From NCBI GenBank assembly GCA_009776805.1, contig WRNB01000013.1, positions 1-32,024 of the forward strand: 32,024 bases of DNA, given 5' to 3'. Positions within the stretch are counted from its first letter, which is position 1. Every line of letters begins with the position of its first letter. The position numbers and the translations under genes are program-made. The stretch comes from Candidatus Bathycorpusculum grumuli. Its GTDB lineage: Archaea > Thermoproteota > Bathyarchaeia > Bathyarchaeales > Bathycorpusculaceae. Under the pieces are notes generated by a model. It made no database searches and was not told the origin of the DNA. It saw only the letters and a list, made by a program, of their open reading frames with translations. Of the stretch, positions 1 through 32,024 are shown in pieces.

Positions 1-2310
1 CAAATCACCGACCCCAACGGCAAAGCCACAAACTACACAGGCAAAACATGGTCCACAGGCACAGTCGGAAGAAAAATGTCATTCAGCGAACCAGGAAACT
101 ACACACTACAAACACTATACGACGGAGAATATTATGCCTATGGAACAAATAACAACAGAGTTTATCGTTATATGAAACCAGCTGAAAGCGAACCAATTAC
201 CCTACAAATCATTGAAGGCTACTGGAAACCAGACTACCCAGGACACAACCTCCCCACAGAATACTGGACACGACCAGTCGACTCACAACTACGAGAATGG
301 TACACAATAATGGGAAGCTGGCTATACTCACGAACAGATTACATACAAGTTACTCAAAATGCACCATACAATGATGCCCCTGAAAGTGCACACATTTTAT
401 GGAGCAAGGATATTGGTGACGTTAATGGCGGTTTAGCTGGCGGAGATTCTGGCACTAGCCCTTTCCAAGCCGGTGACGCATATGAGGGCAGATTCAACAA
501 CGCTGTCATCGTTGCAGGTGTTCTATACTATAACAGAGAATTCAGTGGCGGTTCATCAGCCCCTAATCGATCACAAATGGTTATTGCAGTTGATTTACAC
601 ACAGGTAAAATACTTTGGGAACGAAACTTTGACGGCCTAGGCAACGCAAGAATCTCACATGCACAAATACTTACATTTATTAGTGAGAATAACCGTGGTT
701 CATGGTCTTATCTTTGGATTGGCACTTCAGGTAACATGTACGCAATTGAACCAAAAACTGGTGAACTCCGATACAACATGACCGGTGTTCCAGCTGGACA
801 GTTTTTCTATGGTCCAAGCGGCGAAATGCTAAAATACTCAATTACTGGCAACGCAACTGCTGGTTTTCGGTTATTACAATGGAACTCCACGTACACCGCA
901 ACACGTACTACTGAAGGCACTGGAGCAAATGATAGATGGGGCACTCAAGTAAATTCACGAGCTTCTAACGGCGATGTTCGTTCATTCAATGCAACCATGG
1001 GTTATGACATCAACGTTTCAATATCAGGACTGACCGCTAGTGCAGGAAGTTTAGTTGCGGCATTCCCAGGCGATCGTGTTATCTTCTCAACCACCCCCAA
1101 CGCAACTGGCTTCACCCTTACAGGAATCAGCATTAACGAAGAAAATACCGGGTACATGCTTTTCAACCGCCAGTTCCAAGCACCTCAAGAATGGGAAGGA
1201 TTTGTTTATGATGCAACTACATATCAGACAGGCTGGGCAACTTTTAGCCAAGAAGACATGATAGGCATTTTCTGGACAAGAGAAAACAGAGTTAACTATG
1301 CATTCAGTTTAGAATCTGGCAAACTTTTATGGCAAACAGAAACACGTATCTATGCAGATGCATGGGCGGCACGCGAAGGGATCATTGTAGACGGCAAATT
1401 TATAACATCAAGTGTTGGTGGCATTGTACACTGTTACGATGTTACAAATGGGGAGGAAATTTGGACATATGCGAATGCTGACAAATACAACGAGTCTTAT
1501 CACGGTGAAAACTGGTGGTCAGTTATATGTTTCGTCTCAGATGGTAAAGTATACTTGGGACACTTTGTGCACTCGCCTACAATACCTCTAACGAGGGGCG
1601 CGCCATTCTTTGCACTTGATATAGAGACTGGTAATCCTGTTTGGGAAATTGATGGAGCATTCCGACAAAGCCAATGGGGTCAACGTGCAATTATTGGCGA
1701 CAGCATCATTGCAACGCAAGACTACTATGATTCTAAAATTTATGCAGTTGGTAAAGGTCCAAGCGAAATGACAGCTTCAATATCAAACCCTATAGCAACA
1801 GCAGGCACACCAGTAATGATCTCAGGAACCGTTATAGATATTTCACCAGGCACCACAAGCGACGACGCACAACTGCGATTTCCAAAAGGAGTTCCAGCAG
1901 TATCCGACGAAAGCCAAAGCGAATGGATGCTACATGTCTACAAACACTTTGAAAGTCCAAAAATCACTGAAGGTGTTGAGGTAACAGTTTACGCTCAACA
2001 AGAAGGCAGAGACCCAGTAACCATAGGTACAACAACTAGCAATGCAAACGGTAGATATTCAATAAATTGGGTGCCTCCAGCAGATGCTATAGGTGATTGG
2101 GATGTATATGCATACTTTAGCGGTTCAGCAAGTTATTATGGTACATATGCACAAACGGAATTATCAGTATATGCGACAGCAGTAGAACCAATACCACTAG
2201 AACAAAGTCCACCCTACGGATGGTACATTGCAGGTGCAGCAATCGCAATCATTATAGTTCTCATAGTTGGTATATTAGTGATTCTCAGAAAAATAGACAA
2301 AAAACAATAA
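1..2310 (+). CDS. PQQ-like beta-propeller surface protein, 5'-truncated by window edge
   Basis: The frame is open from base 1, and the residues before the first Met (ITDPNGKATNYTGKTW) already match the N-terminal Ig-like part of the second propeller protein at 24336-26969, so the true start lies upstream of the window. Visible parts, counted from the Met at 76: the end of an Ig-like domain, a YWTRPVDS segment around residue 60, then propeller blades marked by GKILWERN, GKLLWQTE, GEEIWTYA and GNPVWEID, a C-terminal Ig-like region from about residue 565, and one membrane helix (about 715-738) followed by the short basic tail RKIDKKQ. The layout indicates a protein displayed outside the cell and held by a C-terminal anchor. 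In quinoproteins such propellers bind PQQ, but archaeal surface versions usually lack a proven cofactor, so ligand and activity are unknown. It shares the motif VSDESxxxWM with the second propeller protein. The first ~330 bases are strongly A+C-rich while the middle is not. Confidence 0.88.
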   Translation, partial: QITDPNGKATNYTGKTWSTGTVGRKMSFSEPGNYTLQTLYDGEYYAYGTNNNRVYRYMKPAESEPITLQIIEGYWKPDYPGHNLPTEYWTRPVDSQLREWYTIMGSWLYSRTDYIQVTQNAPYNDAPESAHILWSKDIGDVNGGLAGGDSGTSPFQAGDAYEGRFNNAVIVAGVLYYNREFSGGSSAPNRSQMVIAVDLHTGKILWERNFDGLGNARISHAQILTFISENNRGSWSYLWIGTSGNMYAIEPKTGELRYNMTGVPAGQFFYGPSGEMLKYSITGNATAGFRLLQWNSTYTATRTTEGTGANDRWGTQVNSRASNGDVRSFNATMGYDINVSISGLTASAGSLVAAFPGDRVIFSTTPNATGFTLTGISINEENTGYMLFNRQFQAPQEWEGFVYDATTYQTGWATFSQEDMIGIFWTRENRVNYAFSLESGKLLWQTETRIYADAWAAREGIIVDGKFITSSVGGIVHCYDVTNGEEIWTYANADKYNESYHGENWWSVICFVSDGKVYLGHFVHSPTIPLTRGAPFFALDIETGNPVWEIDGAFRQSQWGQRAIIGDSIIATQDYYDSKIYAVGKGPSEMTASISNPIATAGTPVMISGTVIDISPGTTSDDAQLRFPKGVPAVSDESQSEWMLHVYKHFESPKITEGVEVTVYAQQEGRDPVTIGTTTSNANGRYSINWVPPADAIGDWDVYAYFSGSASYYGTYAQTELSVYATAVEPIPLEQSPPYGWYIAGAAIAIIIVLIVGILVILRKIDKKQ

Positions 2311-2323
2311 ACCCGTAAATAAC

Positions 2324-2339
2324 TTTTTTTTCTTTTTTT
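2324..2339 (+). terminator. T-run terminator after the propeller gene
   Basis: Sixteen bases, all T except one C, begin 13 bases after the stop codon of the propeller gene. Archaeal RNA polymerase terminates at such T-tracts without needing a hairpin. Confidence 0.6.
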
Positions 2340-2755
2340 AAAAAATAGTAGTGTTTAATGTTTTGTGTGATCTGTATTTTTTGTTTGTTATTGGTATTTT
2401 TTGTATTGTATCTTGGTGTATTGTTTGTAGTTTGTTTGATCATTTTTGTGTTAGATATAAGTAATGTTGGAAGTTAAAAGGGTGTTGAACACAAGCATTA
2501 AATTGTGCGTTAAGAATTTTTAGGTATAATTATTAAAGCAAATTATAGTAATAGTTGATGCACTGTATAGGGTCACTGTATTGCTACTGCAAAAACTGAA
2601 TTTTAATTTGAAAACAAAATTAGGCCTTTATTTTTTGCTTTAGATAAAAAATACACGCTAATACAGTAATTATTAAAAACGAGTATACAAAAACTAAGAT
2701 ACATTTATTAAGATAAAAATATTAACAATTTAACATAATAGAGAAAAATAAACAT

Positions 2756-2962
2756 ATGAAAAAATTAAAAACAAAAAGATTTTTTCAACAATAGCAATAC
2801 TAATGATAATAACATTTGCCACACCAATGGTTACAACACAAACTGCAAACGCACAAAGCACAAAACAAATAGCCACTTGACCATTTGTTGACGCAATCCC
2901 AAACATTGCAGGCGTCGGACAACCAGTACTAATCAACTGGGGACTACTAAACTTCCTAATAT
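2756..2962 (+). pseudogene. N-terminal relic of a propeller-type surface protein
   Basis: An ATG at 2756 opens a short frame that stops after 12 codons. A +1 shift within the A-run restores a signal peptide (STIAILMIITFATPMV, then TTQTANAQS), an in-frame TGA at about 2878, and then the segment PFVDAIPNIAGVGQPVLINW. This resembles the mature N-terminus of the protein at 24336-26969 (FLSVSPSPIGVGQQALVNLW). Similarity ends at about 2962, where the sequence changes abruptly to G+T-rich spacer. With a frameshift, a stop and no downstream gene body, it is a dead fragment, probably left by duplication or deletion within the propeller family. It lies downstream of the partial propeller gene, so a tandem array may once have existed here. 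Confidence 0.7.
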
Positions 2963-3141
2963 TACAGTTGTTATTCGTTTTATTTGTTGTGTTTTGTTGT
3001 GTTTTGTTACAGCAGCAGTAGTGGTGGTTGTTGATGTTGATTGATGTTAGGTTGTAAGTTGTCTATATTTGATGGGTTGATAGCATGTATTGTAGTTATA
3101 TTTGTCACATTTACAACTATAATGTTAGAATATAGCCTCAA

Positions 3142-3383
3142 TATTAATTGCTGAATAAATGGGTTGCACATGTTTTATTTGTTTATTTTTTCGTCAAGCA
3201 TGTTGTTTTTATAATGTTTTTATTTGTTACTGACATTTTGTTTATAAAAAAGTTTTTCCACATTTTATACAACTTTAATCACACTATGCATACAATTTCA
3301 CATCATTCATTCCATCAAATACAATTAGAAATAAATTATGCATTGTTTTACATTTTTGTAATCAATTACCTCAAAAATATTGG
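3142..3383 (+). repeat. Dispersed repeat family A, copy 1
   Basis: About 240 bases that align end to end with 29894-30143 in the same orientation. Shared blocks include TTAATTGCTGAATAAA at the left, GTTGTTTTTATAATG in the middle, and TCAAAAATATTG at the right. Both copies lie just 3' of a minus-strand gene. In the central 105 bases all differences I counted are transitions. An open frame crosses both copies (KFF, VVFIMFLFVT), but its start and end are not conserved, so I treat it as non-coding. Confidence 0.75.
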
Positions 3384-3449
3384 GAAGGGTTATTATTTTG
3401 AGAAAGTAAAAAAAGATAGCCTATTGATATTGCCATAAAAAAAGGGTTA

Positions 3450-4103
3450 TTAGGCTTCTAAACTTTTACGGTTTTGTACCCCATACATAGGCATAACTTC
3501 AGGCAAACGATCACTTAATTTGCTTTCAGCAGCAAATTCAGCTTCTTCAAGAATCTTTAAGGCTTCCTCATTTGCAACTTGAGTGCCCACACTAGAAATA
3601 TTTGAATATTGATTAGTTGTTGAAGAACAAATTTCTGTAAGCATACCACCAATATTATCTAACTCTTGACTTGCCTCAGGCATAATACTGCACATTTCTG
3701 AACGAACACTATTTAGCATTGTTGTTGCCGGACTTAAAATAGCTACTAGGTCACCCATCTCAGAAACGGTACTCAAACGCATCGACACACTCTGCAATGC
3801 CAAAGAAGCATGAGTAAGCATTTTTTCAACTTTACGAATTTCACAAAGCTCAGTAGCATAAATATTGGCACGTGCCTGATCTCTATTTTCCATAGCACGA
3901 ACCACTTTTCTAAAAAGTTCACCATCACGCATTTCAAAACGTTTAACAGCAGTATCAAGCGATCTTGATTGAATCTCAAGCCGCTGAGTAACAACAACAA
4001 TTTGATCTTTTATGCCTTCCTGTGGCTTACTTGTATTCATAACTTTTGTTATTACATTCTCTTTGTCTTGATTCCGCTTAAAAGGATTGCCCAAATTTAA
4101 CAC
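3450..4103 (-). CDS. CdvB/Snf7-family ESCRT-III-like protein
   Basis: This 217-residue protein has the helical, charged make-up of the archaeal CdvB (Snf7) family, which polymerises on membranes during cell division and vesicle budding. After a short basic leader (NPFKRNQDK), residues 30-125 form long amphipathic helices (VVVTQRLEIQSRSLD, ELFRKVVRAMENRDQARA, CEIRKVEKMLTHASLALQ), followed by a second helical block to about 185. An acidic, proline-containing tail (SDRLPEVMPMYG) resembles an MIT-interacting region. There is no C-terminal winged helix, so it is closer to the shorter CdvB paralogues than to full CdvB. No cdvA or cdvC/vps4 is adjacent. The longest frame begins with GTG at 4103, but a GGAG at 4104-4107 is better spaced for the TTG at 4094, so the protein may start three codons later. 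Confident on the family, less on the paralogue. Confidence 0.85.
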   Translation of the reverse strand: MLNLGNPFKRNQDKENVITKVMNTSKPQEGIKDQIVVVTQRLEIQSRSLDTAVKRFEMRDGELFRKVVRAMENRDQARANIYATELCEIRKVEKMLTHASLALQSVSMRLSTVSEMGDLVAILSPATTMLNSVRSEMCSIMPEASQELDNIGGMLTEICSSTTNQYSNISSVGTQVANEEALKILEEAEFAAESKLSDRLPEVMPMYGVQNRKSLEA

Positions 4104-5159
4104 TCCAAATATTTTAAAACATATATAACAAATAAAAATAAAAGGGTGTTCGCCAAATTAAACTAAAACTCACAACATGTAACAAGGCTTTTTTTAATTT
4201 AATAGCTAAACATTAGCACGACCTAATTGTAATACTCCACTAATAATTTAAGAAATACACGGAAAAATTAGTGGATTCAATTCTTAGCTACTTAAATAGT
4301 GCCAAAAAAACTTTGTGAAAAACAAATCAAAAAATGTTTTTGGGACAAAAATCACAGGTTTTCTCCCATCAAACCACACAAACTCAAACACACAAAATAG
4401 GCATTACATACAACATTTAAGTTACATAAATATTATAACAATTACATATTAGCCACATAATATAATATAAAACATATAAATTATGATCGTGAGGCATTAT
4501 GTATAAAATGGTAATCAAATAAATAAGTAAAAGAACTAAAATAATGGCTAAAACAAGGCACACAATATTCAAAAATCATGAAACACAAGGTTATACACAT
4601 AATGGGTATTGTGTGTAGTGAGGGGGGTAATAGTTTGGTAAGACCGTCTGAAAACTAGATTACAAAATTTTTATTGATGTAAATAATTCTAGAAATTTAT
4701 GTTTTGAAAATATTTCTAGGGTTTAAATATTTTTAATTATGCAGTTTTTAATTTTTGTTTATAGTTTCGACTATTTTTTAGACAACCTGCAGGGGTTTTG
4801 TGGTGTATGTGTTTGTATGGGTTAATTAATAAGGTGTCTCGTTGTTCTAAGTATTATTTGACTGTTAGTCGGTGTGTTTTGTTGACTGGTTTGAAGCTTA
4901 TGGGAGTTTATTGTAATTTCTTCGCTGATGGAAGTATTAGTTTGATTCATTTTTCTATACCATTTACAAAAAATTCAATTTATAAAATATTAACCTGTAA
5001 TTTATTAACATCTAACACTCACTATGAATTACAATAGATTACATTTCATCTTTTTATTTTTAAAGTAATTAAACAGTTACCATGTTTACATAATTTATTA
5101 TTAGTGTCACGAAAATGTTTAATTAACGAATCTTAAAGCAGTATACAAGTGAAAATAGT
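4104..5159. other. Long AT-rich spacer between cdvB-like gene and 5160 ORF
   Basis: About 1.05 kb without a convincing gene. It holds one copy of the MITE-like family D (4643-4786). The plus strand around 4790-4920 is G+T-rich. A 79-codon frame at 4798-5037 lacks recognisable features and changes composition along its length, so it is not called. Confidence 0.5.
4643..4786 (+). repeat. MITE-like repeat family D, copy 1
   Basis: About 144 bases homologous to 17948-18102. The ends ACCGTCTGAAAA and TTTTTTAGACAAC form imperfect inverted repeats that are perfect in the other copy. Internal matches include TTACAAAATTTTT, a GTAAAT followed by ATTCTA, and AGTTTTTAATTTT. It contains no frame of useful length, so it would be non-autonomous. 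Confidence 0.6.
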
Positions 5160-5534: not shown

Positions 5535-5650
5535 TGTATTTAGTTCGCGCGGTTATATATGCATAAACATGGTTATGTGTTATGATTTGTTAAACAAAAC
5601 GTCGCAAAAATTTAATCCATAGTTCTCTGCGAGTTTTTCTAATTACAAAA
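5535..5650 (-). repeat. Dispersed repeat family B, partial copy 3 (inverted)
   Basis: Read on the minus strand, this matches the right end of copy 1 (about 9467-9540). The terminal block ATGTTTATGCATA is followed by a CGCGA and CTAAA core and an ACATA end, with a TTTTGTT-AACA block further inside. Similarity fades towards 5650. The left part of the family (the TTTGTGAACTAGG block) is absent. Confidence 0.5.
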
Positions 5651-5764
5651 AAAACAAGACCATAAACAACGTATTCTGAAAAAACGCCACAAAGTAATTA
5701 CAATGCAATTATAATTACAAACAAACAAACTAAAACAAACATGTACATCGAATACGATAAAAAA

Positions 5765-5938
5765 CATATGCCTATAACCTGCACACAAACATTACAGTGC
5801 AACTTTTTTCGCAACATCACAGCAAATATTTTGGTTACAAAAACCCCATAAACACATCAGTACAGACACACAATAATTCAAATCATTGTGAAAAAACAAC
5901 CTACAAAACATATGCGATGACTATGGACCCATGGTTTT
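5765..5938 (+). repeat. Dispersed repeat family C, copy 1
   Basis: About 174 bases matching 23481-23660 in the same orientation. Shared blocks: ATAACCTGC, CAACTTTTTTCGC, AAATATTTTGGTT, ACAGACACACAATA, TTCAAATCAT and GTGAAAAAACAACCTACAAA. It includes a small inverted repeat, CACAAT/ATTGTG. Frames crossing it do not stay open in both copies. No terminal inverted repeat was seen. Confidence 0.7.
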
Positions 5939-6225
5939 TTGCTAATAAGACACTATCTTTAGGTGTCTTGAGGTTCATTATGTGCCTAAGCAGGTAATTG
6001 GTTTAATGTTTTGGGTGTTTGTTGTGTGCTTTAAGCAGGTAGTGTTTGGTATGTGGGTTCCAAATATTGAAACTCTTAATGAGTTGGTTGTTTGGGAGAA
6101 AGATCGAAATAATGAATGTAAAACAAGTAAATTGGCACTTTACTACCGAACAAGAAGGAGCAAACTAAAATATTTATACCCCAACTTATAATGTTGTCAA
6201 AGCAATATCTTAAATTTGTTAATTT

Positions 6226-6894: not shown

Positions 6895-7423
6895 CAGTTG
6901 TAATACTATAACACAGTTAAATAAAGAGTTTTAGACTATTGAATAATGCATTGACAAAGTTATAATTAGAGGTAACTAACAAAATTAGATGCAATTAAAA
7001 CTAAAATTTAACTATGTCAACGTACTACTGCGACTAAATTATAAATAAATGTTAACTGTGTATTATTACTGTAAGATACAGATATGAACAAAAATACACA
7101 GACCAGTTAACCAAAGATAAACACACACCAATTTTTATAACACTAAATAAAAAAACTTCTAAAAACGTAACCCTCATGAAAATCTACCATAAACACCTTA
7201 TAACAACCACGTAAAACACATAAAAATTAAACAACAAACTTACAAACAACAAAAACCCCACAAACAGCAAACACAAAAAACACAAACAAACCCACAACAT
7301 TCACCAAACCCACAACATTCACCAAACCCACACAAAACAACACACGTATCAATTATTTTTGATTTTTTGATTTTTAGCAAAGAGTTAAATTTATTGTTTG
7401 TTAAGATTTTGTTACGGGATTTG
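6895..7423. other. Spacer, strongly A+C-rich in its right half
   Basis: No gene is seen. From about 7090 to 7335 the plus strand is nearly free of G (runs of aac, aca, cca), ending abruptly near 7336, where the upstream region of the glycosyltransferase begins. It contains an 18-bp tandem repeat (7288-7333). Confidence 0.6.
7288..7333 (+). repeat. 18-bp tandem repeat, 2.5 copies
   Basis: The unit AAACCCACAACATTCACC occurs twice exactly (7288-7305, 7306-7323), followed by a partial third copy (AAACCCACA). It sits at the right edge of an A+C-rich patch. Confidence 0.85.
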
Positions 7424-8134
7424 ATGATTAACTATTGCGATATTCTTACACCAATAGGCGGAACGGATTTACCTACAGTGTGGATGAAAAGTAACAAAAA
7501 ATGGTTAAACACCTATACATGGTATACTTCAACGGTTAAAGGTATTGGAAATGCCCGAAATGAACTGTTAAAAAAAGCTAGTGCACAATTACTGCTATGG
7601 TTAGATTCAGATGTTGAATTAACATTTGATCCTATACCTGCGTTGTATGAGGTTATGCAGAAATTTAATGTATCAGGTGTTTGTGCTGGTCAATTAACTG
7701 TTGGTCACAAATGGTTTCTTAAAGTTGCTGCTGAAATGGATAACTTAGAAATAGAACGACATAGGGGTATAAAGATTGTTGAATCCCGCGCTTTTCAATG
7801 TGCACTTTATAAACGTGATGATTTGCTTAAAGTTGGCGGGTTTGATCCATCTTTTAACACTGCAGGCGAAGACAATGATATAGTAAGGCGTATGATTGCT
7901 AATGGCATGTTAATTTTGCAGTGTAATAATTTAATTGTCAGGCATCATGTTAATGAGCAAACATATTGGCATAAATTTAAAGATTACCATAAAGGGTTTA
8001 GCCAACTTGCCGCAACCATGAAAAATGAATACCAACCAGAAGTTCAAAATTCCGCCATTGATGTTACTATGTTAAAGCGTATGCCTATAAAATATCCACT
8101 CTATAAATTAAAAGAAAAACTTGCTCTTCTGTGA
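7424..8134 (+). CDS. Family 2 (GT-A fold) glycosyltransferase
   Basis: Transfers a sugar from a nucleotide-sugar donor; acceptor unknown. In the 236-residue form the first strand is YCDILTPIGG, then GIGNARNELLKKA leads to the metal-binding DSD in LLLWLDSDVEL, and the acceptor-side FNTAGEDNDIVRRM carries the ED pair typical of GT2 enzymes. No membrane helix is present, so it acts in the cytoplasm or at the inner face of the membrane. The frame extends back to a TTG at 7367, but the ATG at 7424 fits the family N-terminus better and removes a stretch without function. It is short for GT2 (many have 250-300 residues). Its stop overlaps the start of the radical SAM gene (GTGA at 8131-8134), so the two are probably translated together and act in one pathway. 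Confidence 0.85.
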   Translation: MINYCDILTPIGGTDLPTVWMKSNKKWLNTYTWYTSTVKGIGNARNELLKKASAQLLLWLDSDVELTFDPIPALYEVMQKFNVSGVCAGQLTVGHKWFLKVAAEMDNLEIERHRGIKIVESRAFQCALYKRDDLLKVGGFDPSFNTAGEDNDIVRRMIANGMLILQCNNLIVRHHVNEQTYWHKFKDYHKGFSQLAATMKNEYQPEVQNSAIDVTMLKRMPIKYPLYKLKEKLALL

Positions 8135-9144
8135 AGTGGAAGACAATGATTGTGCCTAAAATTTTAACTTTCTTTGTAACAAACCGTTGTAACGCCAAAT
8201 GTAATCACTGTTTTAACTGGAAAAATATTCGCGTAAATGAGTTAACTCTTGAAGAAATTCAAAAAATAGACTTTAGCATTTTTAATTCTGTCTCCATTAC
8301 AGGCGGCGAACCAACTATGCGAGAAGATCTTGCAGAAATTTGCCGACATGTAGCTAAAACCAAAATTTACCTAAACACTAACGGCTTAAACCCTCAATAC
8401 CTCAAAGAAGTTATAGATAAAAATAATGCAAACAGAATTAATGTTACAGTTTCACTTGACGGAACAAAAGACATACACAACCAAATCCGAGGTATAAATT
8501 GTTTCGACCAAGCTATTGAAACTATAAAACAATGTAAAAAAACCAGTACCAACACCACAATCCTCACAACAATATCTCGTACTAACATGGCAGACATTCA
8601 CGCATTCATAAACTATCTCAAAACAGAAAACTTGTACACAAAAAAAGGTGATGTAATTTTTAATATTGCACGCGGACTTCAACACGTCTTCAACCTAAAC
8701 CCAACAATTAGTTTCTACCACAACCCAAAAGACAACAATGCAATATTGACACCCACAGAATTCAAAACAATATTCAACCAAATCAAACAATACATGACAA
8801 ATCAAAATCGTATAGTCTGGGAATACTCTCTCAAAATACTCAATCAACAAAAAAAAGCTGTCACCTGCTATGCAGGAAACATAGACATGGTGCTTCACGC
8901 CAACGGCGATATTGCTGCTTGTGAATACACAAAACCCTTCACAAACATCAAAAATCACAATTTTGATCCAACTGTAGCATGGAACAGTAAAAACGCACAG
9001 ATAACAAGAAAAGAGCTTACCAACTGTTATTGTATCCATCCTTGCAACCTAAACACGTCAATTCCTAGAACATTAACAGGTATCATCAAGCTCGCACCTG
9101 ACATAGCCAAAAATAAAACAAACAAATTCAAAAACAAAATATGA
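8131..9144 (+). CDS. Radical SAM enzyme with SPASM-like C-terminal cysteines
   Basis: Cleaves S-adenosylmethionine at a [4Fe-4S] cluster to start radical chemistry; substrate unknown. The cluster motif is C20-C24-C27 (CNAKCNHC), followed by GGEP at 58-61 and the strand VTVSLDGTKDIHNQIRG. The C-terminal part has cysteines at about 246 (TCYAGN), 263 (AACEYT) and a C299-Y-C301-xxx-C305 group, the pattern of a SPASM/twitch-like auxiliary cluster seen in peptide-modifying and MoaA-like enzymes. GTG at 8131 overlaps the upstream stop; ATG at 8146 is an alternative. The first ~200 bases have ordinary composition, but from about 8330 to the end the coding strand becomes strongly A+C-rich, so codon use changes inside the gene. 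No precursor-peptide gene was found beside it, so a RiPP role is open. Superfamily is certain; pathway is not. Confidence 0.88.
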   Translation: MKWKTMIVPKILTFFVTNRCNAKCNHCFNWKNIRVNELTLEEIQKIDFSIFNSVSITGGEPTMREDLAEICRHVAKTKIYLNTNGLNPQYLKEVIDKNNANRINVTVSLDGTKDIHNQIRGINCFDQAIETIKQCKKTSTNTTILTTISRTNMADIHAFINYLKTENLYTKKGDVIFNIARGLQHVFNLNPTISFYHNPKDNNAILTPTEFKTIFNQIKQYMTNQNRIVWEYSLKILNQQKKAVTCYAGNIDMVLHANGDIAACEYTKPFTNIKNHNFDPTVAWNSKNAQITRKELTNCYCIHPCNLNTSIPRTLTGIIKLAPDIAKNKTNKFKNKI

Positions 9145-9237
9145 CATACGTTTTCTATTTTAAATCTTTAAATTAAATTCTTGTTAGGTGTGTGCGCATA
9201 CACTAGAAAATTGTGAAAAAAATCCAAACACCAAACA

Positions 9238-9540
9238 TCAAACAAAAAAACCATACATCCATAATTAGCCTACAAGTTTGTGAACTAGGTGTTTTGACAC
9301 GATTAATAGTTTGTAGAGATGTTGATGAACTGACTTTGTTACACCACTTTTCTAGTCTTGCTATGGTTCGTGTAATTGTGGAAGTACTTTTCAGAATTTG
9401 TATGTGTTTAGTTCTTAGTGAAAAAATGGTTTTTCTTGTTCGTTTTAAGCTGAAATTTAAATTTAGGTTATTTTTGTTCAACAGATATAGTTACACACAT
9501 ATGTTTATGCATACATGTTCACGCGAGCTAAACACATACC
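9238..9540 (+). repeat. Dispersed repeat family B, copy 1 (longest)
   Basis: The left ~140 bases (9255-9410) match the reverse complement of 24115-24290. Shared blocks include ACAAGTTTGTGAACTAGG, TTAATAGTTTGTAG, ATGGTTCGTGTA and GTGGAAGTACTTTT. The right end (TATGCATACATGTT, then CGCGAGCTAAAC) recurs at 24110-24130 and 5535-5575. About 90 bases in the middle of this copy are missing from copy 2. Both strands have open frames here (VCELGVL and LLHHF in one), kept partly between copies, so it may be a relic of a mobile element's coding part. Confidence 0.7.
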
Positions 9541-12982: not shown

Positions 12983-12983
12983 T

Positions 12984-13937: not shown

Positions 13938-13939
13938 GT

Positions 13940-16956: not shown

Positions 16957-17068
16957 AATTTTTTATTATTTTGTGTGCAACATAGCAATAGTTTGTGATT
17001 GGACAACATCAAATTTTTTACAAAAAAAAAGTTAGGTGTTGAAAAAAATTGAAGGTGTTGGGTTTGTT

Positions 17069-21510: not shown

Positions 21511-22183
21511 CGGTTTTACACGTATTTAAGAGCTTGCTAAACTCGTATGTATTTCACATGAAAAATGTTTTCCATATCACTTTAATAAACTATTATTTTA
21601 TGCTTTTAACGCACGTATTTTTATAGTTTTTATCTCAAAATACACTGCATATATGCATAAATAATTCTGTTTGTCGAATAATCGTTATTACTCAGTAGAA
21701 GTGTGTAGTAAATGTCAGTCTTTATTATTGTTTTGATGGTTTTATTGGTGTGGTTGTGTGGTTTTTGTGTTTTTATACATTTGATTTGTCCATTTGGCGG
21801 CGTTTTTGTTCAGTTTTGATGTGCAAAAATAATAATGACTAAAGTATAATGTTATTTTTTACTTGTAAATTGCTATGTATAGTGGTTTTTCTGCAATTTT
21901 TTAGTCGTGGAAAATTGTGAATAATGATAATTGTTGTATGTGTGTAAGATTGGTGTGAAAACACTGCAAGTAGTGGGAATCTGATGAGTAGGTACAACTA
22001 ATTTTTAAAAACGTTAGAATTTAAATTTTTATTTTTGAATTAAAAATTATTTTTCATAGAATTTAGATTTATTTTTGCTATAACCCTACTGTGGAATAAT
22101 AGTCTTAAAAAAATAATCAGTTAAATAAATATTTTATAACATTTAAATTCTACTTTTTACATAATTATACCTGAGGATACTTT
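21511..22183. other. AT-rich divergent spacer before the CBS gene
   Basis: About 670 bases with no gene. The plus strand from about 21700 to 21960 is G+T-rich. The last 150 bases are extremely AT-rich and should contain the CBS-gene promoter (for example ATTTTATAAC near 22130). Confidence 0.5.
22173..22176 (+). promoter_or_regulatory. Shine-Dalgarno of the CBS-HPF gene
   Basis: GAGG seven bases before ATG 22184. Confidence 0.5.
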
Positions 22184-23380: not shown

Positions 23381-23480
23381 TTTCACAAAACTCTTTGATT
23401 TGTGACATACAAGTTTGTACATAACTTGGTAGTCGCATGTTTTTGTCTACCTTGTTTTTTGTCAGAGTTTATTTTTTTTC

Positions 23481-23660
23481 CATATGTTCATAACCTGCGC
23501 ACAAACACTATAGCAACTTTTTTCGCGACAATATAGTAAATATTTTGGTTGCAAAAACCCTACAAACACACTATTTTTACAGACACACAATAGTTCAAAT
23601 CATGGTGAAAAAACAACCTACAAAACATGTGTGATTGTTATAGACTATAGTTTTTAGTTG
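23481..23660 (+). repeat. Dispersed repeat family C, copy 2
   Basis: Matches 5765-5938 in the same orientation across its length with a few small indels. Most substitutions are transitions, and most put G or T here where copy 1 has A or C. It passes directly into a G+T-rich spacer. Confidence 0.7.
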
Positions 23661-24114
23661 TTTTTTGTGTTGTTGGGTTGTGTGTTTTTGTTTCTTTATT
23701 TAACGATAACCTGATGACTTGGGTTGAACTCTACAATTAGTTCTTTTAAGGTTATATCGGTGTTGCTAGATTTTTTTGGTTATTTGATCCATAGTTTGCT
23801 GTGTTACGAGGATTTTTCGTCACTGTGTTCGGAGTCGTGGTTTTATGAATCCTGTTTTTTGTGCAGAACCCATACTTTTGTGACTACACTTTACTTATTA
23901 TAGCCCGTTGACTATGTATTTTTCATTTACATAGTTTTGCTTATGGCGATTATTTTTTTCTCTAATTTCTTTGGATGTGGAATTGGCAATACAAACACCA
24001 CAAACACAACACACACCGCTAGTTGTTAGTTAACTAAAAGTTGAACTGCTATACGAGTTGTCGGTTTCAGGAAAAGAGTGCGGTTGCCTATAAAGTTATA
24101 TTGACAATTTCACG
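23661..24114. other. Spacer with possible decayed gene on the minus strand
   Basis: No intact gene. On the minus strand, three short coding-like pieces lie in different frames between about 23900 and 23700 (for example MGSAQKTGFIKPRLRTQ, and a tail ITLKELIVEFNPSHQVIVK ending at TAA near 23698). They may be remnants of one gene broken by frameshifts, but could be chance. The rest is featureless. Confidence 0.3.
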
Positions 24115-24290
24115 AGGTATAAAAAAACATGTATGCATAAGTAACATACAAATTCTAAAAAGTACTTCCACAAATACACGAACCATAACAAAGCCACAAA
24201 AATGATGCAACAAAAACAATTTAACAACATCACTACAAACTATTAACCATATCAAAACACCTAGTTCACAAACTTGTATACTAATTATGA
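24115..24290 (-). repeat. Dispersed repeat family B, copy 2
   Basis: Its reverse complement matches copy 1 (9255-9410 plus the terminal block near 9505-9520), lacking about 90 inner bases. It lies just downstream of the propeller gene stop at 24336. Differences from copy 1 are strongly directional: nearly all place G or T on the minus strand. Confidence 0.7.
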
Positions 24291-24335
24291 ATGTATAGAA
24301 AAAAAAGAAAGTGGATTTATTGTTTGTTTGGTTTT

Positions 24336-26969
24336 TTATTGCTTTTTCTTGAGCAATAAAAGGATGCCAATTAACAGCACTGCGACTACTATTATAACAG
24401 TTGAAATGGCAATGTATAATCCAATTGGGGGTATTGTTACGGTGTTGTCTACAACTTCTGGTGCTGCAGATACGCCTATTGTTGTTGAAGCCCATGATGA
24501 TCCATATGCATTGCTACCTGCAAAGGTTGCTGTGACATAGTATGGATTAGCATCATCTGGTATCCAGACGTAACTAAAGCTTCCGGTTGTATCAGTATAT
24601 GTTTCACCTACGTGTATCCATTCGCCGTTTTGGTTCATTGCATCGATTGAAACTGGGACGCCGACTATAGTTTCATTATTGTAGAATCCTCCGATTGGCA
24701 TTTGTAAGTATTTATAATCCATCCAAGTATCCATGCTTTCGTCAGAGACACATGCTATTCCTGCAGGGTCTAAGGCTAGTGAGGCTGGAGCTTGATCAAG
24801 AACTGATCCAGTTAAGACAACACTATTGCCTTTGCTGATTCCAATTTGTGGTCCACTTAGAGAGGTTTTGCTTGGACTTTTACCTAGTACATACATTGTT
24901 CCATCGTAGTTACTTGCTGCTGTTAAGTACCCATATGCTGCTGCACCGGCCTGCATGCGTGTGCCTGAGAGTTTCCATTGTACTTCACCAGTGATTGCAT
25001 CAAGACACATCATACCCCAGCCACGTTGTGGTGGTTGACTTGGTGTGTGTTCATTGTTTGAAACATAGAGTAAGCCGCCAATGACGCGAATGTCCTGCAC
25101 TGTGTAGGATGATTCACCCTCAGTTACGTATGGTGTTTCAAATGGAGGTGCAGGATCCCAGTGTTGCCAAGCTAATTCGCCAGTTGTTTGGTTAATTGCA
25201 TGTATACCTGTGTATCCGACTGCGTAAATCAAATCTTGGTATGCTGCTTCATCATACATCCAAAAGATACCCCAAGGCCAGTCATCAACTTTATATGTCC
25301 ATAGTTCTTTACCGTTCTTTAGATCCCAAGCCTTAATGGAGCCAAGTTCCATTTGAGCCATATATTTGCCGTCTCTTACCCAGACATTAGTTGGTCTATA
25401 GGCAGAAGACATCTCATCCTTGCTTGATTGGTATTCCCAGAGTATTTTACCAGTTTCTAAGTCTAGAGCCTCTAATCTATAACCATAGTAACCACCGTAG
25501 ATGAATCTGTGTTGTTGTACGCTAATCATACTATCCCAATCAACTGCTGCAAGAACGTTCCCGTAATCGCTTACCCCATAGGCAGTTCGATAACTTCTTG
25601 GTAAAGTCATAGAAACATTGCTTTCGATACGGCTAGTAAAGTTAGTTGAGGTGCCTTGAGAAGACCATTTAATCAAGTTGCCAACGTATGCAGATGCAAA
25701 AGAGACATCTGGAGCTGGGTTGTCCATAATTGATTCAAGTCCTTGAAAACTGTAGTAATAACCATCACGGAAAGCGATTTCGTTGTTAGAACCGTTACCT
25801 GTTCCGATAACTGTGCTAATGCTAATGTTTGCGGTTATTGCGCCAGTAGTTGGGTTTACCTTGTATAATCTTCCGCCGCTGATTGTACTTAGTTCTGGTG
25901 TTAAAGCTACGTCTGCAACTGCACCAGGTACAATTGAACTTTCATTTGGATCAAAGTATGAGATGTGGGTCGGAGTAATTCCGCCTTGAGCAATTGGACG
26001 TGCATAGTATAATTCACCAGTACGTAGATCGTAGCATACTGCACAGCTTGTTGGTACACCGTCAATTAATTCGTTTCTTGTTTGATATGCTCTGCCCATG
26101 TAAATTACGTTTGGAGTACCCGGACTCGATAGTGTTGAAAAAGTGAATCCTTCACCGCCAATGAGACCAGCTACATTGCTTTGTCGTTTCCACACGATGT
26201 GTGGAGTGGTAACTGCTGGGATATATGGCCCATAATAATTGTCAGTCCATGCATTGCTTGAAACGCCTACAACGTTTGCTTGTCCCCAAGGATAGTGACC
26301 TAATGCATCCCAAGAGTTACGGTTGTTTGGTTCAACTGGATGCGTCCAGTAGTCATTGGATGGTGTATTTTGCCATACGCCCCAAACAAGATCTTCCTGT
26401 ACGATTAAAGTAACTTCTCGTGATTCTGCTGGTGAACAATACACCGCTGGGTTGTAAATTGCACTTCTAAAATCACCTGTACGTGTCTCTGAGTGTTTGC
26501 CGTTAGTATAGTAGCCTTCTGGGAAGAATTCGCCGGCAAAGTAGAATTTAAGTGTATAGTTGCCTACTTTTAGTGGTGTGTATGAGAACCAGCAAGTGCC
26601 GCTAGCCACGTATGATTTGAGGTTAACTGTTTGAGTTGAACCATCGGGATCAGTAATTACAACTTTATAGCCAGTCATGTATTTTCCTTCACCAGAGGGG
26701 AAGGTAATCCAAAGATTAACTAATGCCTGCTGACCTACACCAATTGGTGATGGCGAAACACTTAGAAAAGCTTGAGGATTAATTGTATACTCTACTGTTT
26801 TGTCTGATGGAATTGTGGATGGCCCTTCGTATCCTCCACCTGGAGGTGACCCGCTTGTATCTATAGTTCCGCTTTTGTTTGATTGTGCAGAAACTGGAAT
26901 AAATATTGACATCACCAGAATACATAGAAATAGCGCCGATATTAATACGTATATACTTTTATTTTTCAT
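24336..26969 (-). CDS. PQQ-like beta-propeller surface protein, complete
   Basis: An 877-residue surface protein. It begins with a signal peptide (YVLISALFLCILVMSIFIPVSA); the Ig-like region (about 60-170) contains SPSPIGVGQQALVNLWITF. A DYWTHPVEP motif opens the propeller domain, with blades marked by GKILWEYQ, GKELWTYK, GELAWQHW and GEVQWKLS. A C-terminal Ig-like domain (GETYTDTTGSFSYVW) leads to one membrane helix (IAISTVIIVVAVLLIGILLLL) and KKKQ. It is thus exported, folded outside and anchored at the C-terminus. Ligand or cofactor is unknown. The frame extends 17 codons upstream to ATG 27020, but ATG 26969 puts the signal peptide at the N-terminus; a GGAG further upstream could also serve the TTG three codons before it. 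It is paralogous to the gene at the window's left edge. Confidence 0.9.
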   Translation of the reverse strand: MKNKSIYVLISALFLCILVMSIFIPVSAQSNKSGTIDTSGSPPGGGYEGPSTIPSDKTVEYTINPQAFLSVSPSPIGVGQQALVNLWITFPSGEGKYMTGYKVVITDPDGSTQTVNLKSYVASGTCWFSYTPLKVGNYTLKFYFAGEFFPEGYYTNGKHSETRTGDFRSAIYNPAVYCSPAESREVTLIVQEDLVWGVWQNTPSNDYWTHPVEPNNRNSWDALGHYPWGQANVVGVSSNAWTDNYYGPYIPAVTTPHIVWKRQSNVAGLIGGEGFTFSTLSSPGTPNVIYMGRAYQTRNELIDGVPTSCAVCYDLRTGELYYARPIAQGGITPTHISYFDPNESSIVPGAVADVALTPELSTISGGRLYKVNPTTGAITANISISTVIGTGNGSNNEIAFRDGYYYSFQGLESIMDNPAPDVSFASAYVGNLIKWSSQGTSTNFTSRIESNVSMTLPRSYRTAYGVSDYGNVLAAVDWDSMISVQQHRFIYGGYYGYRLEALDLETGKILWEYQSSKDEMSSAYRPTNVWVRDGKYMAQMELGSIKAWDLKNGKELWTYKVDDWPWGIFWMYDEAAYQDLIYAVGYTGIHAINQTTGELAWQHWDPAPPFETPYVTEGESSYTVQDIRVIGGLLYVSNNEHTPSQPPQRGWGMMCLDAITGEVQWKLSGTRMQAGAAAYGYLTAASNYDGTMYVLGKSPSKTSLSGPQIGISKGNSVVLTGSVLDQAPASLALDPAGIACVSDESMDTWMDYKYLQMPIGGFYNNETIVGVPVSIDAMNQNGEWIHVGETYTDTTGSFSYVWIPDDANPYYVTATFAGSNAYGSSWASTTIGVSAAPEVVDNTVTIPPIGLYIAISTVIIVVAVLLIGILLLLKKKQ

Positions 26970-27623
26970 ATAATTCAATATATGTTTTTCTCCTTTATAC
27001 ACATAATGAATGGTTGACATATTAATAAAGCTACTTCATGTCACACAGAAATATTTTTATTAAAAACAAAAAAATAACCAATAAATTTAAATTCTTAAAA
27101 TGATTTTACTCGAATTTTTTTTGCGACACAATTAAACCAATAATAACCTTGAAAAAGTTTTGAATAACACAGTTACAACCTATATTAATCCCAAAAACAC
27201 CGAAGCCGAATTTCCCCTGAAAACTTGGTTATTTCCAAAGTTTTTCTAATATCGACTCGACAATAGTGCACTATATAGAAAAAATTATTTGGCCTCAATG
27301 TCATCAAATCATTCAGGTTGAACCATTTAGTTGCATAAATTTATGACGTATGTTGATGGTGTTTTTTGTGATTTTTTGGGAGCGAAGTTGAAACGTTATT
27401 TTGTTTACTAAAAATTAGTAGATGTTATAAAATTATTTCCGTTTTTGCACAGTCTGAATTACACATTTTTTATAATCAGAACTTGTTTTACATAATTAAC
27501 AAAAAATGTTAACACTGTAGTGCCCAAAAATACAGGCTTTTGGAAATTTAATTTAATGAATCAAACATTTTCAGCACCACTGTGTGCTAGCATAAGTTTA
27601 AAAAGTAGTTTATCTGATTAACA
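26970..27623. other. Divergent promoter region
   Basis: About 650 bases between the propeller gene (minus) and the 27624 gene (plus). It is AT-rich, with no gene or repeat recognised; it must contain the promoters of both. Confidence 0.5.
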
Positions 27624-28439
27624 TTGGGTATTAAATTGAATAAACGACTACTCATAATAAGCATAGTTTTATGTCTTGTAGCTTCAATTTTTGTTGGAAA
27701 TATTCAAGCTCAGACAATTGTTCCGGGTGTTACGCCAGGTATGACGTTTAACTATTGTCTTTCCAGTTATTGGTCATCATCTGACCCTTTCGATTCAATC
27801 CCAGTTGAACTTCTTTTAGTTAATCAAACATTATATGTTGAGCTTAGAATTAGTGAAGTAAACTCTACACATGTTGTAACAGATAGTATGTGTTACTATA
27901 CAGATGGAACTGCCACTTTTGAGAGGGGAGCGGTTGATCTTTACACAGGCAATGATCAGGGTTTTTCAGGTGTAATAGGTGCTAACCTTAAAGCAGGTGA
28001 TTTTATTCACCCAATTGGAACAGATAGCTTAACTATTGCAGATACAGTAACAAGAACTTATGAAAAAGGAGATAGGGAAACAAACCATGTTCACATAGTG
28101 GACGGTAACAAAACAGCTGGTTATATCGGTACAAGAGACTTATATTTTGACAAAAAAACAGGTATACTTGTGGAACAGATCGATCAAGTTGAAACTACCG
28201 AGTTCCCAACAGGTATAACCCAAGTTACTTGGAAACTTGATTCCACTCTTAATGTTGAAGACTGGACGGTCACTGGAAAATTCTCAACAATAAACAACAC
28301 GGGATCACCGTCTATTGGTTCTTCACAACAGAGTAAAGATCAAACTATCTCAACAGTTCAATTGTTGCTTGCTGCAGTTATTTTAATTATAATCATAACA
28401 GTTGTAATAATAGTCTACAAGAAAAGAAAACACAAATAA
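27624..28439 (+). CDS. Secreted, C-terminally anchored protein of unknown function
   Basis: A 271-residue protein: signal peptide (LLIISIVLCLVASIFVGNIQAQ, about 9-30), a soluble beta-rich region (MTFNYCLSSYW, VELLLVNQTLYVELRISEV, VVTDSMCYYTDGTATFERG, TAGYIGTRDLYFDKKTGILVEQ), a Ser/Gln-rich linker, one membrane helix (VQLLLAAVILIIIITVVIIV, about 246-265) and a basic tail KKRKHK. It has the same build as the propeller proteins, so it lies on the outer face. The two cysteines in the soluble part might pair. The start is TTG 27624; TTG 27636 is possible. The domain (about 200 residues) is not one I can name. It is transcribed divergently from the propeller gene. Confidence 0.78.
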   Translation: MGIKLNKRLLIISIVLCLVASIFVGNIQAQTIVPGVTPGMTFNYCLSSYWSSSDPFDSIPVELLLVNQTLYVELRISEVNSTHVVTDSMCYYTDGTATFERGAVDLYTGNDQGFSGVIGANLKAGDFIHPIGTDSLTIADTVTRTYEKGDRETNHVHIVDGNKTAGYIGTRDLYFDKKTGILVEQIDQVETTEFPTGITQVTWKLDSTLNVEDWTVTGKFSTINNTGSPSIGSSQQSKDQTISTVQLLLAAVILIIIITVVIIVYKKRKHK

Positions 28440-28903
28440 CAATAAACAACCGTATATTGTTTTGAATAACTCTAACAAAAACCTACCATAAATACCCTAT
28501 GTCAACCCATCATATATCCAAAACTAATAATATAACACAACAAAACCAACACCATTTACCCTTTTTCAAACACCAACAAACAAAACCATCCAAACATCAA
28601 CAAACAAACCCGCCGGATACAGACTCAACTCTTACACTTGATGTCTACAGTGGCATATTCCTAAAAAAACAACACCTCACGTAACCACCAACACCAAACC
28701 ACCAAACAAAACATCAAACCAACTACTCAAACCAGCGACTCACACAACAAACCCACCCAACTTTTTCTCATACAACACCCGATTCACCAATGTCATCAGG
28801 CTATCTTTTTGAAACTTAAAAAAAGTAACACACCAACAAAACAAACAAAAACAACCCCAAACAACAACCCAAAAACAATACAAACAAAACAAAACGTTTT
28901 TGC
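28440..28903. other. Strongly A+C-rich spacer
   Basis: On the plus strand G is nearly absent from 28500 to 28600 and 28680 to 28890. Short open frames (for example 28499-28684) are His/Gln/Asn/Thr/Pro-rich products of that composition and are not called. A 30-base stretch near 28478 resembles 7168-7200. Confidence 0.55.
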
Positions 28904-30339: not shown

Positions 30340-30876
30340 TTACTGTTGTTTTGCGGCTTCAATTAATTTAGCGGCAATCTTGGGCGAAATTTTAAGATTC
30401 ATTGCCAGATCTTCAACGGATGCTTGTGCTAATTCTTTAGCATTATTTATACCCAAAGCGTTAAGTTGTATTGCTCTTTTTTCTCCAACACCCTTAACAT
30501 TTGTTAAGGATATTTCTTGTTCAACTTGAACAGGCACTTCAATGTTCTGAATTGTTACCGTTGGCATCTCTTCTTGTTGTGTGTGGGTCGTTATTGTTTC
30601 GTTTGTAAATTCAGCTGTTTCCATTGTTTGTGTGGGTTCAACAGAAACAGGTTTAGTAACTGTTTGTTTTTCACCTAAAATTTCTTCTGATACTGTTTCT
30701 TCAACTAAAACTTCTGTAGTAGGTGTTTGTTGGATTGATGATTCTGTATTGGTGATTGCGTTTGGGGTGGTTTGTATTGTTTTGATGTTTTTCTTTGTTT
30801 TTGGTCGTTGACTGTATCCTACGCCTATTACAAGTATTGCTATAACAATAGCGGCTATTATCCATATGCTATCCAT
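30340..30876 (-). CDS. Membrane-anchored protein with helix-hairpin-helix C-terminal domain
   Basis: A 178-residue protein: N-terminal membrane helix (IWIIAAIVIAILVIGVGY, about 4-21), a disordered Thr/Glu/Gln-rich linker to about residue 122, and a compact C-terminal domain LTNVKGVGEKRAIQLNALGINNAKELA, followed by a second hairpin (SPKIAAKLIEAAK). GVGEKRAxxLxxLGI is a helix-hairpin-helix motif as found in DNA-binding and DUF4332-type proteins. The helix would place the DNA-binding domain on the cytoplasmic side, so it might tether DNA or a nucleic-acid complex to the membrane. It starts at ATG 30876, with GGGA seven bases upstream. Isolated gene. Confidence 0.78.
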   Translation of the reverse strand: MDSIWIIAAIVIAILVIGVGYSQRPKTKKNIKTIQTTPNAITNTESSIQQTPTTEVLVEETVSEEILGEKQTVTKPVSVEPTQTMETAEFTNETITTHTQQEEMPTVTIQNIEVPVQVEQEISLTNVKGVGEKRAIQLNALGINNAKELAQASVEDLAMNLKISPKIAAKLIEAAKQQ

Positions 30877-31286: not shown

Positions 31287-31296
31287 CTTATAAACA
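31287..31296 (+). promoter_or_regulatory. TATA-like box upstream of the 31339 hairpin
   Basis: ACTTATAAAC fits an archaeal TATA element and would place a transcription start near 31315-31320, just ahead of the nested hairpin. Confidence 0.3.
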
Positions 31297-31338
31297 GACA
31301 CTATAGGCATTTATCAGTTTTCCCAGTTAATTTAGGGG

Positions 31339-31392
31339 ATAAAACAACAGAGATGGTTATCAACAATTTGGTTGATAATTTGGGTGTTTTAT
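31339..31392 (+). ncRNA. Candidate structured RNA: nested perfect stems
   Basis: An outer 8-bp stem (ATAAAACA at 31339-31346 with TGTTTTAT at 31385-31392) encloses an inner 8-bp stem (TTATCAAC at 31357-31364 with GTTGATAA at 31371-31378) with a six-base loop, separated by an internal loop. Two perfect 8-bp pairings nested within 54 bases are unlikely by chance, though AT-rich sequence favours them. No known RNA class was recognised. Confidence 0.35.
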
Positions 31393-31643
31393 GCTTGTTG
31401 AAGTGTTCATAATTTTTGTTGACTGGTTTATGATGGCATAAATGGTTTTAGCATACATGACTTTTTTTCTTGAAAATTTTTATCTATATGTTTGTAACAA
31501 AATTTTTCTCATTTAGTTTCATGTTATTCAGTGGTGTTTACAAGTTGTTGATACCTGTATGTATCCGTCTATTTATAGTCTCTTTGTTTTAATGCCAAAT
31601 GGTTCTTGAATATTTTGGAAAAACTAGGTTTGTACAAAAACTA

Positions 31644-31745
31644 AGTCTGAAAAACAAGTAACGAATAGTTTTTCTACTTTTTTTCATTAAAAATTTTTAA
31701 ATATGTAGTTTTTGTGTAGTTAATATGTTGTTATTAGGGAAAAAT
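31644..31745 (+). repeat. MITE-like repeat family D, partial copy 3
   Basis: Begins AAGTCTGAAAAACAAGTAAC, like the left end of the 17948 copy, and continues with a TTTTTAAATATGTAGTTTTT block similar to the middle of the 4643 copy. The right inverted end was not found. Confidence 0.35.
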
Positions 31746-32024
31746 GTTATCATAATAATATTGTTTTTAAGTTGATTTTTTATGTGTAATGCTAAATTTC
31801 TTGATAGGGCTGTAAATGCAAATAATGTAAAGAGTTGTTGTTCTATTTTGTAGTCGTTTAGTTTTGTTTTTGTTTGAACCATGTTTAGAAATAGGGATGT
31901 TATCTGCGTTTTTGACTGTTTTAATTATCCGTAATTCCCGACTTTTTTCTTACCACAATTTACGATGTTGAACAAGAAGACAGTTGCATTAAAATAATGT
32001 TGTTATTTGTGTTTTGTAGTCAAA

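Follow-up and report, generated by a model that had tools for sequence, protein, structure and literature searches.

The window, a stretch of 32,024 nucleotides, is a contig from a MAG of Candidatus Bathycorpusculum, a member of the termite-gut clade of Bathyarchaeia, and along it patches rich in G+T (keto, K) alternate with patches rich in A+C (amino, M), the K value being the skew (G+T)-(A+C). Patches were called by 3-state HMM segmentation, with a Markov sequence as the control, and carry no strand assignment. Genes and copies of dispersed repeats lie among them, and the features are as follows, with patch borders from the HMM.

2324–2487: K patch (C 2%)
2646–2966: M patch adjoining a K patch at 2967
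2967–3243: K patch
4090–4602: M patch adjoining a K patch at 4603
4603–4954: K patch
4642–4791, plus strand: dispersed repeat R4 copy
5645–5931: M patch adjoining a K patch at 5932
5760–5939, plus strand: dispersed repeat R5 copy; transitions 1 K-ward and 11 M-ward
5932–6096: K patch
7087–7345: M patch (composition A.55, C.29, G.03, T.13)
8356–9275: M patch beginning within the radical SAM gene 8131–9144 (plus strand; Pfam PF04055) and extending into the intergenic region
9254–9404, plus strand: dispersed repeat R9 copy; inverted partner at 24145–24294
9276–9478: K patch adjoining the preceding M patch, with a sharp M>K edge at 9275
10841–11111: M patch in the 3' half of the ECF-S-like gene 10384–11370 (plus strand; PF12822, below cut-off)
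13677–13843: K patch in the GHMP kinase-like gene 12984–13952 (minus strand)
13901–14452: K patch over the DUF447 gene 13940–14572 (minus strand; PF04289)
14769–14899, plus strand: dispersed repeat R14 copy; 12 copies in 1.18 Mb
17054–17254: K patch
17948–18106, plus strand: dispersed repeat R4 copy
19478–20258: M patch across the tail-to-tail ends of the LeuA-like gene 18423–19754 (plus strand) and the radical SAM gene 19751–20755 (minus strand)
21701–21957: K patch
23480–23655, plus strand: dispersed repeat R5 copy; transitions 1 K-ward and 9 M-ward
23628–23986: K patch with a sharp M>K edge at 23627
23987–24310: M patch
24145–24294, minus strand: dispersed repeat R9 copy; partner of 9254–9404
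28417–28895: M patch (G 5%)
30543–30810: K patch
31367–32024: K patch reaching the window end

The variance of (G+T)-(A+C) in the window is 4.9, 8.7 and 13.3 times the binomial expectation at 100, 300 and 1000 bp, respectively, compared with 1.6–3.2 times for the purine/pyrimidine axis. The K extremes of 200-bp windows are +0.48 and -0.73, against +0.36 and -0.42 in 100 second-order Markov simulations, and |K| exceeds 0.3 at 12% of window positions but at no more than 0.3% in the simulations. The HMM finds 25 patches in the window and none in the Markov control. Patches of both signs occur, with a median length of about 325 bp, and the sign is not constant over a replichore. Tract lengths lie mostly between about 60 and 800 bases, the longest being 1.5–3 kb. 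Patch edges are sharp within a few bases, and the two orders are about equally frequent (45 M>K, 37 K>M). An earlier, sequence-only reading of the window had claimed alternating segments nearly lacking G or C. The alternation is borne out far above chance by the binomial, Markov and HMM comparisons, with HMM borders near most of those proposed, and the near-absence of one base holds for 7090–7335 (G 2.8%), 28440–28900 (G 5%), 2341–2470 (C 2.3%), 2960–3070 (C 5.4%) and 21700–21960 (C 5.7%); it was overstated for 8330–9140 (G 12%), 10850–11370 (G 13%), 18770–20500 (G 15%) and 13480–14570 (C 14%). The skew does switch within genes near 8330 (K from -0.03 to -0.33) and near 10850 (+0.03 to -0.24), while the switch proposed at 18770 is weak (-0.14 to -0.21). 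The patch placed at 18770–20500 across convergent genes extends only over 19478–20258 in the HMM and spans the tail-to-tail pair ending at 19751–19754.

Genome-wide patchiness beyond the single window is confirmed as real. The genome-wide check suggested by the sequence-only reading, carried out over 1.18 Mb of this Candidatus Bathycorpusculum genome, has shown that 11% of 200-bp windows reach |GT-AC| values of 0.35 or more, whereas the figure for other archaea is 0.05%. The patchiness is directly seen to be restricted by lineage, with 5–12% of such windows in termite-gut genomes and 1.6% in soil members of the same genus. In the literature searched, no paper describing such patches was found, and genome-wide strand-coordinated tract hypermutation in archaea seems not to have been described before.

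As first proposed, the patches ignore genes and coding strand. The K value at 4-fold sites on coding strands has a mean of +0.03 (sd 0.32), the coding-strand patch totals in the HMM are 28.6 kb for K and 32.0 kb for M, and the skew shows no trend around gene starts or stops. Replication strand and gene direction, which the sequence-only reading had named as explanations fatal to its own, were tested and do not account for the skew. The cause is almost certainly not ordinary strand skew from replication or transcription, codon usage, or selection on the structure of proteins or nucleic acids: some in-gene switches fall at membrane helix ends, as read off the sequences, but the sign alternates every few hundred bases, the coding-strand mean is only 0.03, and decayed repeats show the skew in non-coding DNA, so that the coding-strand, gene-end and decayed-repeat data refute this explanation. 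Junction hairpins were also rejected as a cause, folding being -4.8/-4.4 kcal/mol at junctions against -3.1/-3.2 kcal/mol 200 bp away, with no motif; the slightly stronger folding arises because an M arm beside a K arm can pair. An apparent tendency of repeats to lie at M>K junctions in a single orientation did not hold up as copies were added, and flank signs vary. The right flank of R4 is K on average, an exception among the variable repeat flanks.

The direction of mutation was read from decayed dispersed repeats, some of which are IS1 transposase remnants, and each copy diverges along a single strand direction. One 239-base copy has 41 K-ward and 0 M-ward transitions and 13:0 transversions, amounting to 54 amino-to-keto changes and 0 in reverse, and the K-ward:M-ward counts of other copies are 21:1, 13:0, 11:0, 1:13 and 0:11. 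The per-copy direction is overdispersed (p ~ 4e-14). A>G minus T>C and C>T minus G>A have the same sign in 45 of 53 copies (p = 2e-7), supporting the earlier proposal of a local, strand-specific process that strikes both A and C on one strand. When direction is defined from transitions only, transversions are 214 concordant to 60 discordant (p = 2e-21), and within-class transversions are balanced (33:31 and 28:24). Therefore, the raised class is exactly that of keto-keto mispairs on one strand. The spectrum in the major direction is A>G 230, C>T 230, A>T 101 and C>G 11, and that in the minor direction is T>C 34, G>A 36, T>A 12 and G>C 2. The substitutions that dominate, a point on which the sequence-only reading had asked for a check, are A>G, C>T and A>T, all three elevated on the same strand, with A>T strand-coordinated at 101:12 and 45:10. 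C>T is about twice A>G per site, and G>T is not raised in repeat-copy changes. Changed sites carry no strong sequence motif, and the context effect is weak.

Major-direction changes reach 179 per kb in directional copies against 45 in others (about fourfold), while the within-class transversions, which serve as the clock class, are flat at 29 and 25 per kb, indicating that mutations were added and not redirected. Up to about 45% of A/C sites are changed in tracts. Adjacent sites changed together in 116 cases against 88–95 predicted from context, and this tandem excess, 2.4–3.3 sd after context correction, lends weak support to processive error. The changes were apparently laid down as localised bursts ignoring genes, and the added load and sharp edges are compatible with a single-event origin of each cluster.

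The chief competing explanation is that exposed A and C were deaminated. In transient single-stranded tracts, A would become hypoxanthine, which is read as G, and C would become uracil, which is read as T; both would stay unrepaired because the termite-gut lineages lost endonuclease V (EndoV), which repairs deaminated A, and A>T would come from abasic or hypoxanthine bypass. In agreement with this, A>G and C>T occur on the same strand, C>T at about twofold per site; intact EndoV is found in 0 of 11 termite-gut genomes and in 11 of 14 other genus members (p = 1e-4 ignoring phylogeny), one genome (G012) retaining a broken copy; and a UDG match is absent in the own genome. Since the termite lineages TB1 and TB2 are polyphyletic (PMC10684969), two lineages share both patchiness and EndoV loss. 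The EndoV loss in all termite-gut genomes keeps deamination viable, but several observations weigh against it. In G017, a relative free of patches, EndoV gives no match; most termite genomes have UDG, and nearly all have an EndoQ-like protein. Strand-coordinated A>T requires an additional step, A deaminates chemically far more slowly than C, and depurination would be expected to raise G>T, for which no rise is seen. In EndoV+ genomes, A/G makes up no smaller a share of the skew, and the C>T-dominated skew expected there is not seen, although these are weak tests, the windows having been picked by total skew. A PF00383 search for the unusual A or C deaminases that the sequence-only reading had envisaged gave a single ordinary dCMP-type deaminase and no deaminase expansion. 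A deaminase or deamination alone is not supported as the full cause in view of the same-strand A>T (transversions 214:60), the lack of a strong motif and this one ordinary enzyme. Deamination is regarded as a rather unlikely origin of the patches.

The skews are not conserved between species. Their correlation falls from r = 0.98 to about 0 as 4-fold sites saturate, and the skew of the DUF447 gene is -0.35 in the own genome and up to +0.61 in others, with sign flips among close relatives. The direction autocorrelation of interspecies differences is 0.19–0.25 for the termite clades, compared with 0.02 for other archaea. Persistent local strand exposure by stable R-loops or pervasive antisense transcription, with one strand of a given site mutating over the long term, has in its favour that neighbouring species partly share the sign of the skew (own versus G020, r = 0.58); GT-rich displaced strands could also feed back on R-loops. 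However, the loss of sign with saturation, the flips, the lack of relation to gene orientation or ends and the sharp edges make such exposure very improbable.

Biased gene conversion would yield an amino-rich strand if EndoMS/NucS cleared keto-keto but not amino-amino mismatches in heteroduplexes of diverged copies. EndoMS prefers G-T, G-G and T-T and ignores A-C (PMC8228993), a specificity that is exactly the patch axis; NucS is present and MutS absent, and the tract lengths and sharp edges suit conversion. However, donor tracts should bring within-class transversions, a class that is flat (29 versus 25 per kb), near-pure GT or AC tracts would require many same-direction events, and patch-free archaea also have NucS, leaving conversion with little probability. 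Mismatch-repair loss in the patchy clade only was rejected, NucS being present and MutS absent in relatives too, as was PolX, which is absent. A diversity-generating retroelement or mutagenic retrohoming was likewise rejected: G000, G001, G010 and G020 gave no RVT_1 match, and reverse transcriptase is absent in the own genome.

Directly observed are the tracts themselves, their coordination by strand, their spectrum, the mutations added in them, their restriction to certain lineages and their turnover between species. The favoured explanation is that strand-coordinated hypermutation acted locally and left the patches as scars, single-stranded tracts having been filled by low-fidelity keto-keto copying; its probability is judged to fall just short of even. 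One strand per tract would be picked at random, regardless of genes, and exposed in a gap, D-loop or R-loop. Low-fidelity fill-in would then put G opposite T, T opposite G and T opposite T, making the new strand GT-rich and its partner AC-rich, so that amino bases on the chosen strand would become keto (A>G, C>T and A>T strongly, C>G slightly), and one tract may be hit repeatedly. Y-family polymerases can make keto-keto errors, and human Pol iota prefers G opposite T. The observed spectrum is that of keto-keto mispairs, as in Pol iota-like low-fidelity synthesis, and the own genome has one Y-family polymerase gene, a candidate enzyme. Patchwork repair synthesis, the second option of the sequence-only reading, fits the spectrum and sharp edges better than deamination does. 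Nevertheless, relatives without strong patches also have a Y-family polymerase, the change of about 45% of A/C sites requires an extreme error rate or several hits per tract, the tandem excess is just 2.4–3.3 sd, slow, persistent local asymmetry may stand in place of bursts, and EndoV loss favours deamination. In addition, EndoMS/NucS is present and apparently intact, and so keto-keto mispairs should be repaired. A tentative extension, possible but distinctly doubtful, is that tract hypermutation is ongoing genome-wide, carried out by a specific polymerase or error-prone repair with systematic keto-keto mispairing, that it is strong enough to outweigh codon usage and amino-acid composition, and that it grew stronger on two occasions among termite-gut lineages.

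If true, this would be a natural example of a prokaryote whose whole genome is shaped by clustered, strand-coordinated mutagenesis, and its thousands of recorded events would allow spectrum, tract length and turnover to be measured without culture. Since the amino/keto axis coincides with the EndoMS/NucS substrate range, the patches bear on mismatch handling in archaea without MutS. In Bathyarchaeia, local composition also distorts ORF calling, codon statistics, the mapping of origins by strand skew, and phylogenetics.

EndoMS/NucS acts on the same keto-keto axis (G-T, T-T, G-G), but as a repair enzyme it should remove such changes, and it is present and apparently intact here. Transcription-associated asymmetry, a GT excess on coding strands, also shares the amino/keto axis, whereas the patches here have no coding-strand preference. 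Low-fidelity Y-family synthesis of the Pol iota type has the same keto-keto spectrum, although tracts here reach kilobases and the archaeal enzyme is a candidate only. Mitochondrial strand asymmetry raises the same transition pair, A>G and C>T, on one strand, but it is set by replication over the whole molecule; here the sign alternates every few hundred bases and turns over between species, and A>T is raised, the transversions being strand-coordinated (214:60). Kataegis, the strand-coordinated clustered mutation by APOBEC/AID in tumours and yeast, shows the same local clusters of one-strand changes, ascribed to single-stranded DNA. Here, no motif-specific C changes were found, and the PF00383 search gave no candidate DNA deaminase; unlike in kataegis, A and C both change, A>T included, with no strong motif, and a whole archaeal genome has been shaped over evolution.

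Throughout, K is the plus-strand difference (G+T)-(A+C), expressed as a fraction. The analysis went from the skew patches of the window to the remaining genome (1.18 Mb) and then to relatives, and covers about half of the genome, whose assembly, with the window as contig 13, is 2.29 Mb long and 97.6% complete. The patches noticed in the sequence-only reading are real, as window statistics, simulations and a hidden Markov model (HMM) all agree. In 1-kb windows over 432 kb of the genome, the variance of K is 24 times binomial, and that of the purine/pyrimidine axis is 6 times. HMM segmentation assigns about one quarter of the sequence to patches, equally shared between G+T-rich (12%) and A+C-rich (13%) tracts, with lengths of up to 3 kb and a median near 325 bp, and patches of opposite sign may adjoin within a few bases. 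Two large PQQ/beta-propeller-like proteins, probably at the surface, are encoded at 76-2310 and 24336-27020, with a GC content of 0.43 against about 0.32 in the surroundings; the latter gene lacks strong patches, and the former has one, at its start only. At 16643-16939 lies the gene of a small OB-fold protein resembling Ssb (PF21473), which is a candidate for binding single-stranded DNA.

Open reading frames were called mechanically; three genes of the window are referred to below:
13940-14572, minus strand, DUF447 gene
18423-19754, plus strand, LeuA-like gene
19751-20755, minus strand, radical SAM gene
The patches disregard genes, as that reading had held: coding-strand K at 4-fold sites has a mean of +0.03, a standard deviation of 0.32 and a range from -1 to +0.9, and profiles around gene starts and stops and in convergent and divergent gaps are flat. 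The patch said to run across a tail-to-tail gene pair lies at 19478-20258 and spans both genes, so the coding strand is AC-rich in the LeuA-like gene and GT-rich in the opposite radical SAM gene.

Dispersed repeat copies compared with their own consensus are free of coding constraint. At least one family is what is left of an IS1 transposase (match to PF03400 with E 1.3e-9; a decayed family, at 12949-13101 of locus L005). Changes are strand-coordinated, each copy having its own direction: one 239-base copy carries 54 amino-to-keto changes, no reverse change and 3 within-class changes, and long duplicate pairs give 54 against 2, 48 against 2, 27 against 2 and 24 against 2 by direction. The oriented spectrum (major direction: A>G 230, C>T 230, A>T 101, C>G 11; minor: G>A 36, T>C 34, T>A 12, G>C 2) comes from copies selected on all amino/keto changes, the unbiased test being that the direction set by transitions predicts that of transversions, 214 to 60. 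Within-class transversions are unbiased (A>C 33, C>A 28, G>T 24, T>G 31). The directional changes are an added load: per kb, changes in the major direction number 179 in strongly directional copies and 45 in the others, with no rise in the minor direction (20 against 37) or the within-class clock (29 against 25). The skew patches thus arise by mutation. Among the repeats, R5 (5760-5939, 23480-23655 and elsewhere; 22 copies in 1.18 Mb) is quasi-palindromic, intergenic and self-matching on both strands, and R14 (14769-14899), 132 bases long, occurs 12 times in 1.18 Mb; some of these copies are nearly skew-neutral between flanks whose |K| is 0.7-0.9, which would suit a recent insertion.

The skew is local and turns over between species. 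For differences from the relative G020, the direction autocorrelation starts at 0.16 (within 25 bp) and decays to 0.09 by 500 bp and 0.04 by 800 bp (control axes, 0.03 and 0.01). Across groups, it reaches 0.19-0.25 for both termite groups and 0.10 for soil relatives, and other archaea and Bathyarchaeia stand at 0.02. Orthologue skew correlation falls from 0.98 at nearly identical 4-fold sites to about zero at saturation, a relation partly built in because genes alike in skew are thereby more identical. In the DUF447 gene, 4-fold K is -0.35 here and +0.61, +0.52 and +0.56 in G021, G010 and G008, with three distant rows left out (wrong open reading frame picked).

The pattern tracks lineage, as the share of windows whose |K| is 0.35 or more shows. 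This share is 11.2% for this genome, 7.9% for G020, 4.9% for the relative G001 and 12.2% for other termite-gut loci. Soil members of the genus have 1.6%, other Bathyarchaeia 1.0% and other archaea 0.05%; AT-rich Methanovirga, likewise from termites, has 0%. The LeuA-like protein shares 89-93% identity with named termite-gut Candidatus Bathycorpusculum genomes and about 78-84% with congeners from soil, bog and digester; LeuA coordinates also served to match genome handles such as G020 to names. A tree of one gene splits the termite-gut genomes into two clades; the termite lineages TB1 and TB2 are described as polyphyletic (PMC10684969). Some Asgard loci also show raised 1-kb K variance (18.8 in L107, Jordarchaeia; also L105 and L108, Hermodarchaeota), with sharp junctions absent, and might reflect the same process acting more weakly.

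Deamination of A and C in single strands, proposed earlier, accounts for both the A>G and C>T transitions but does not give A>T directly, and the strand-coordinated transversions argue against it. It is kept alive by repair gene content, in which absences are provisional because the relatives' genomes are metagenome-assembled: endonuclease V, which repairs deaminated A and is retained by most soil relatives, is absent from 11 of 11 termite-gut genomes (G012 holds a broken copy), and a UDG (PF03167) match found in close relatives is absent from this 97.6% complete genome. However, G017 lacks endonuclease V and yet has no patches, and nearly all termite-gut genomes retain an EndoQ-like protein. 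A third idea is gene conversion biased by the mismatch endonuclease EndoMS/NucS, whose preference for G-T, G-G and T-T (PMC8228993) lies on the same axis, but conversion should also import within-class differences, and that class does not rise in directional copies.

All raised changes put a keto base in place of an amino base, and so are equivalent, on the strand concerned, to a keto-keto mispair; the mispairs implied are G opposite T, T opposite G, T opposite T and, rarely, G opposite G. A single-stranded tract copied at low fidelity, perhaps in bursts, would produce such mispairs and hence the whole spectrum in one step. Adjacent double changes are slightly in excess, which is consistent with low-fidelity copying. 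The genome has one Y-family polymerase, also present in quieter relatives, and, opposite a template T, human Pol iota incorporates G in preference to A (PMC3031609).
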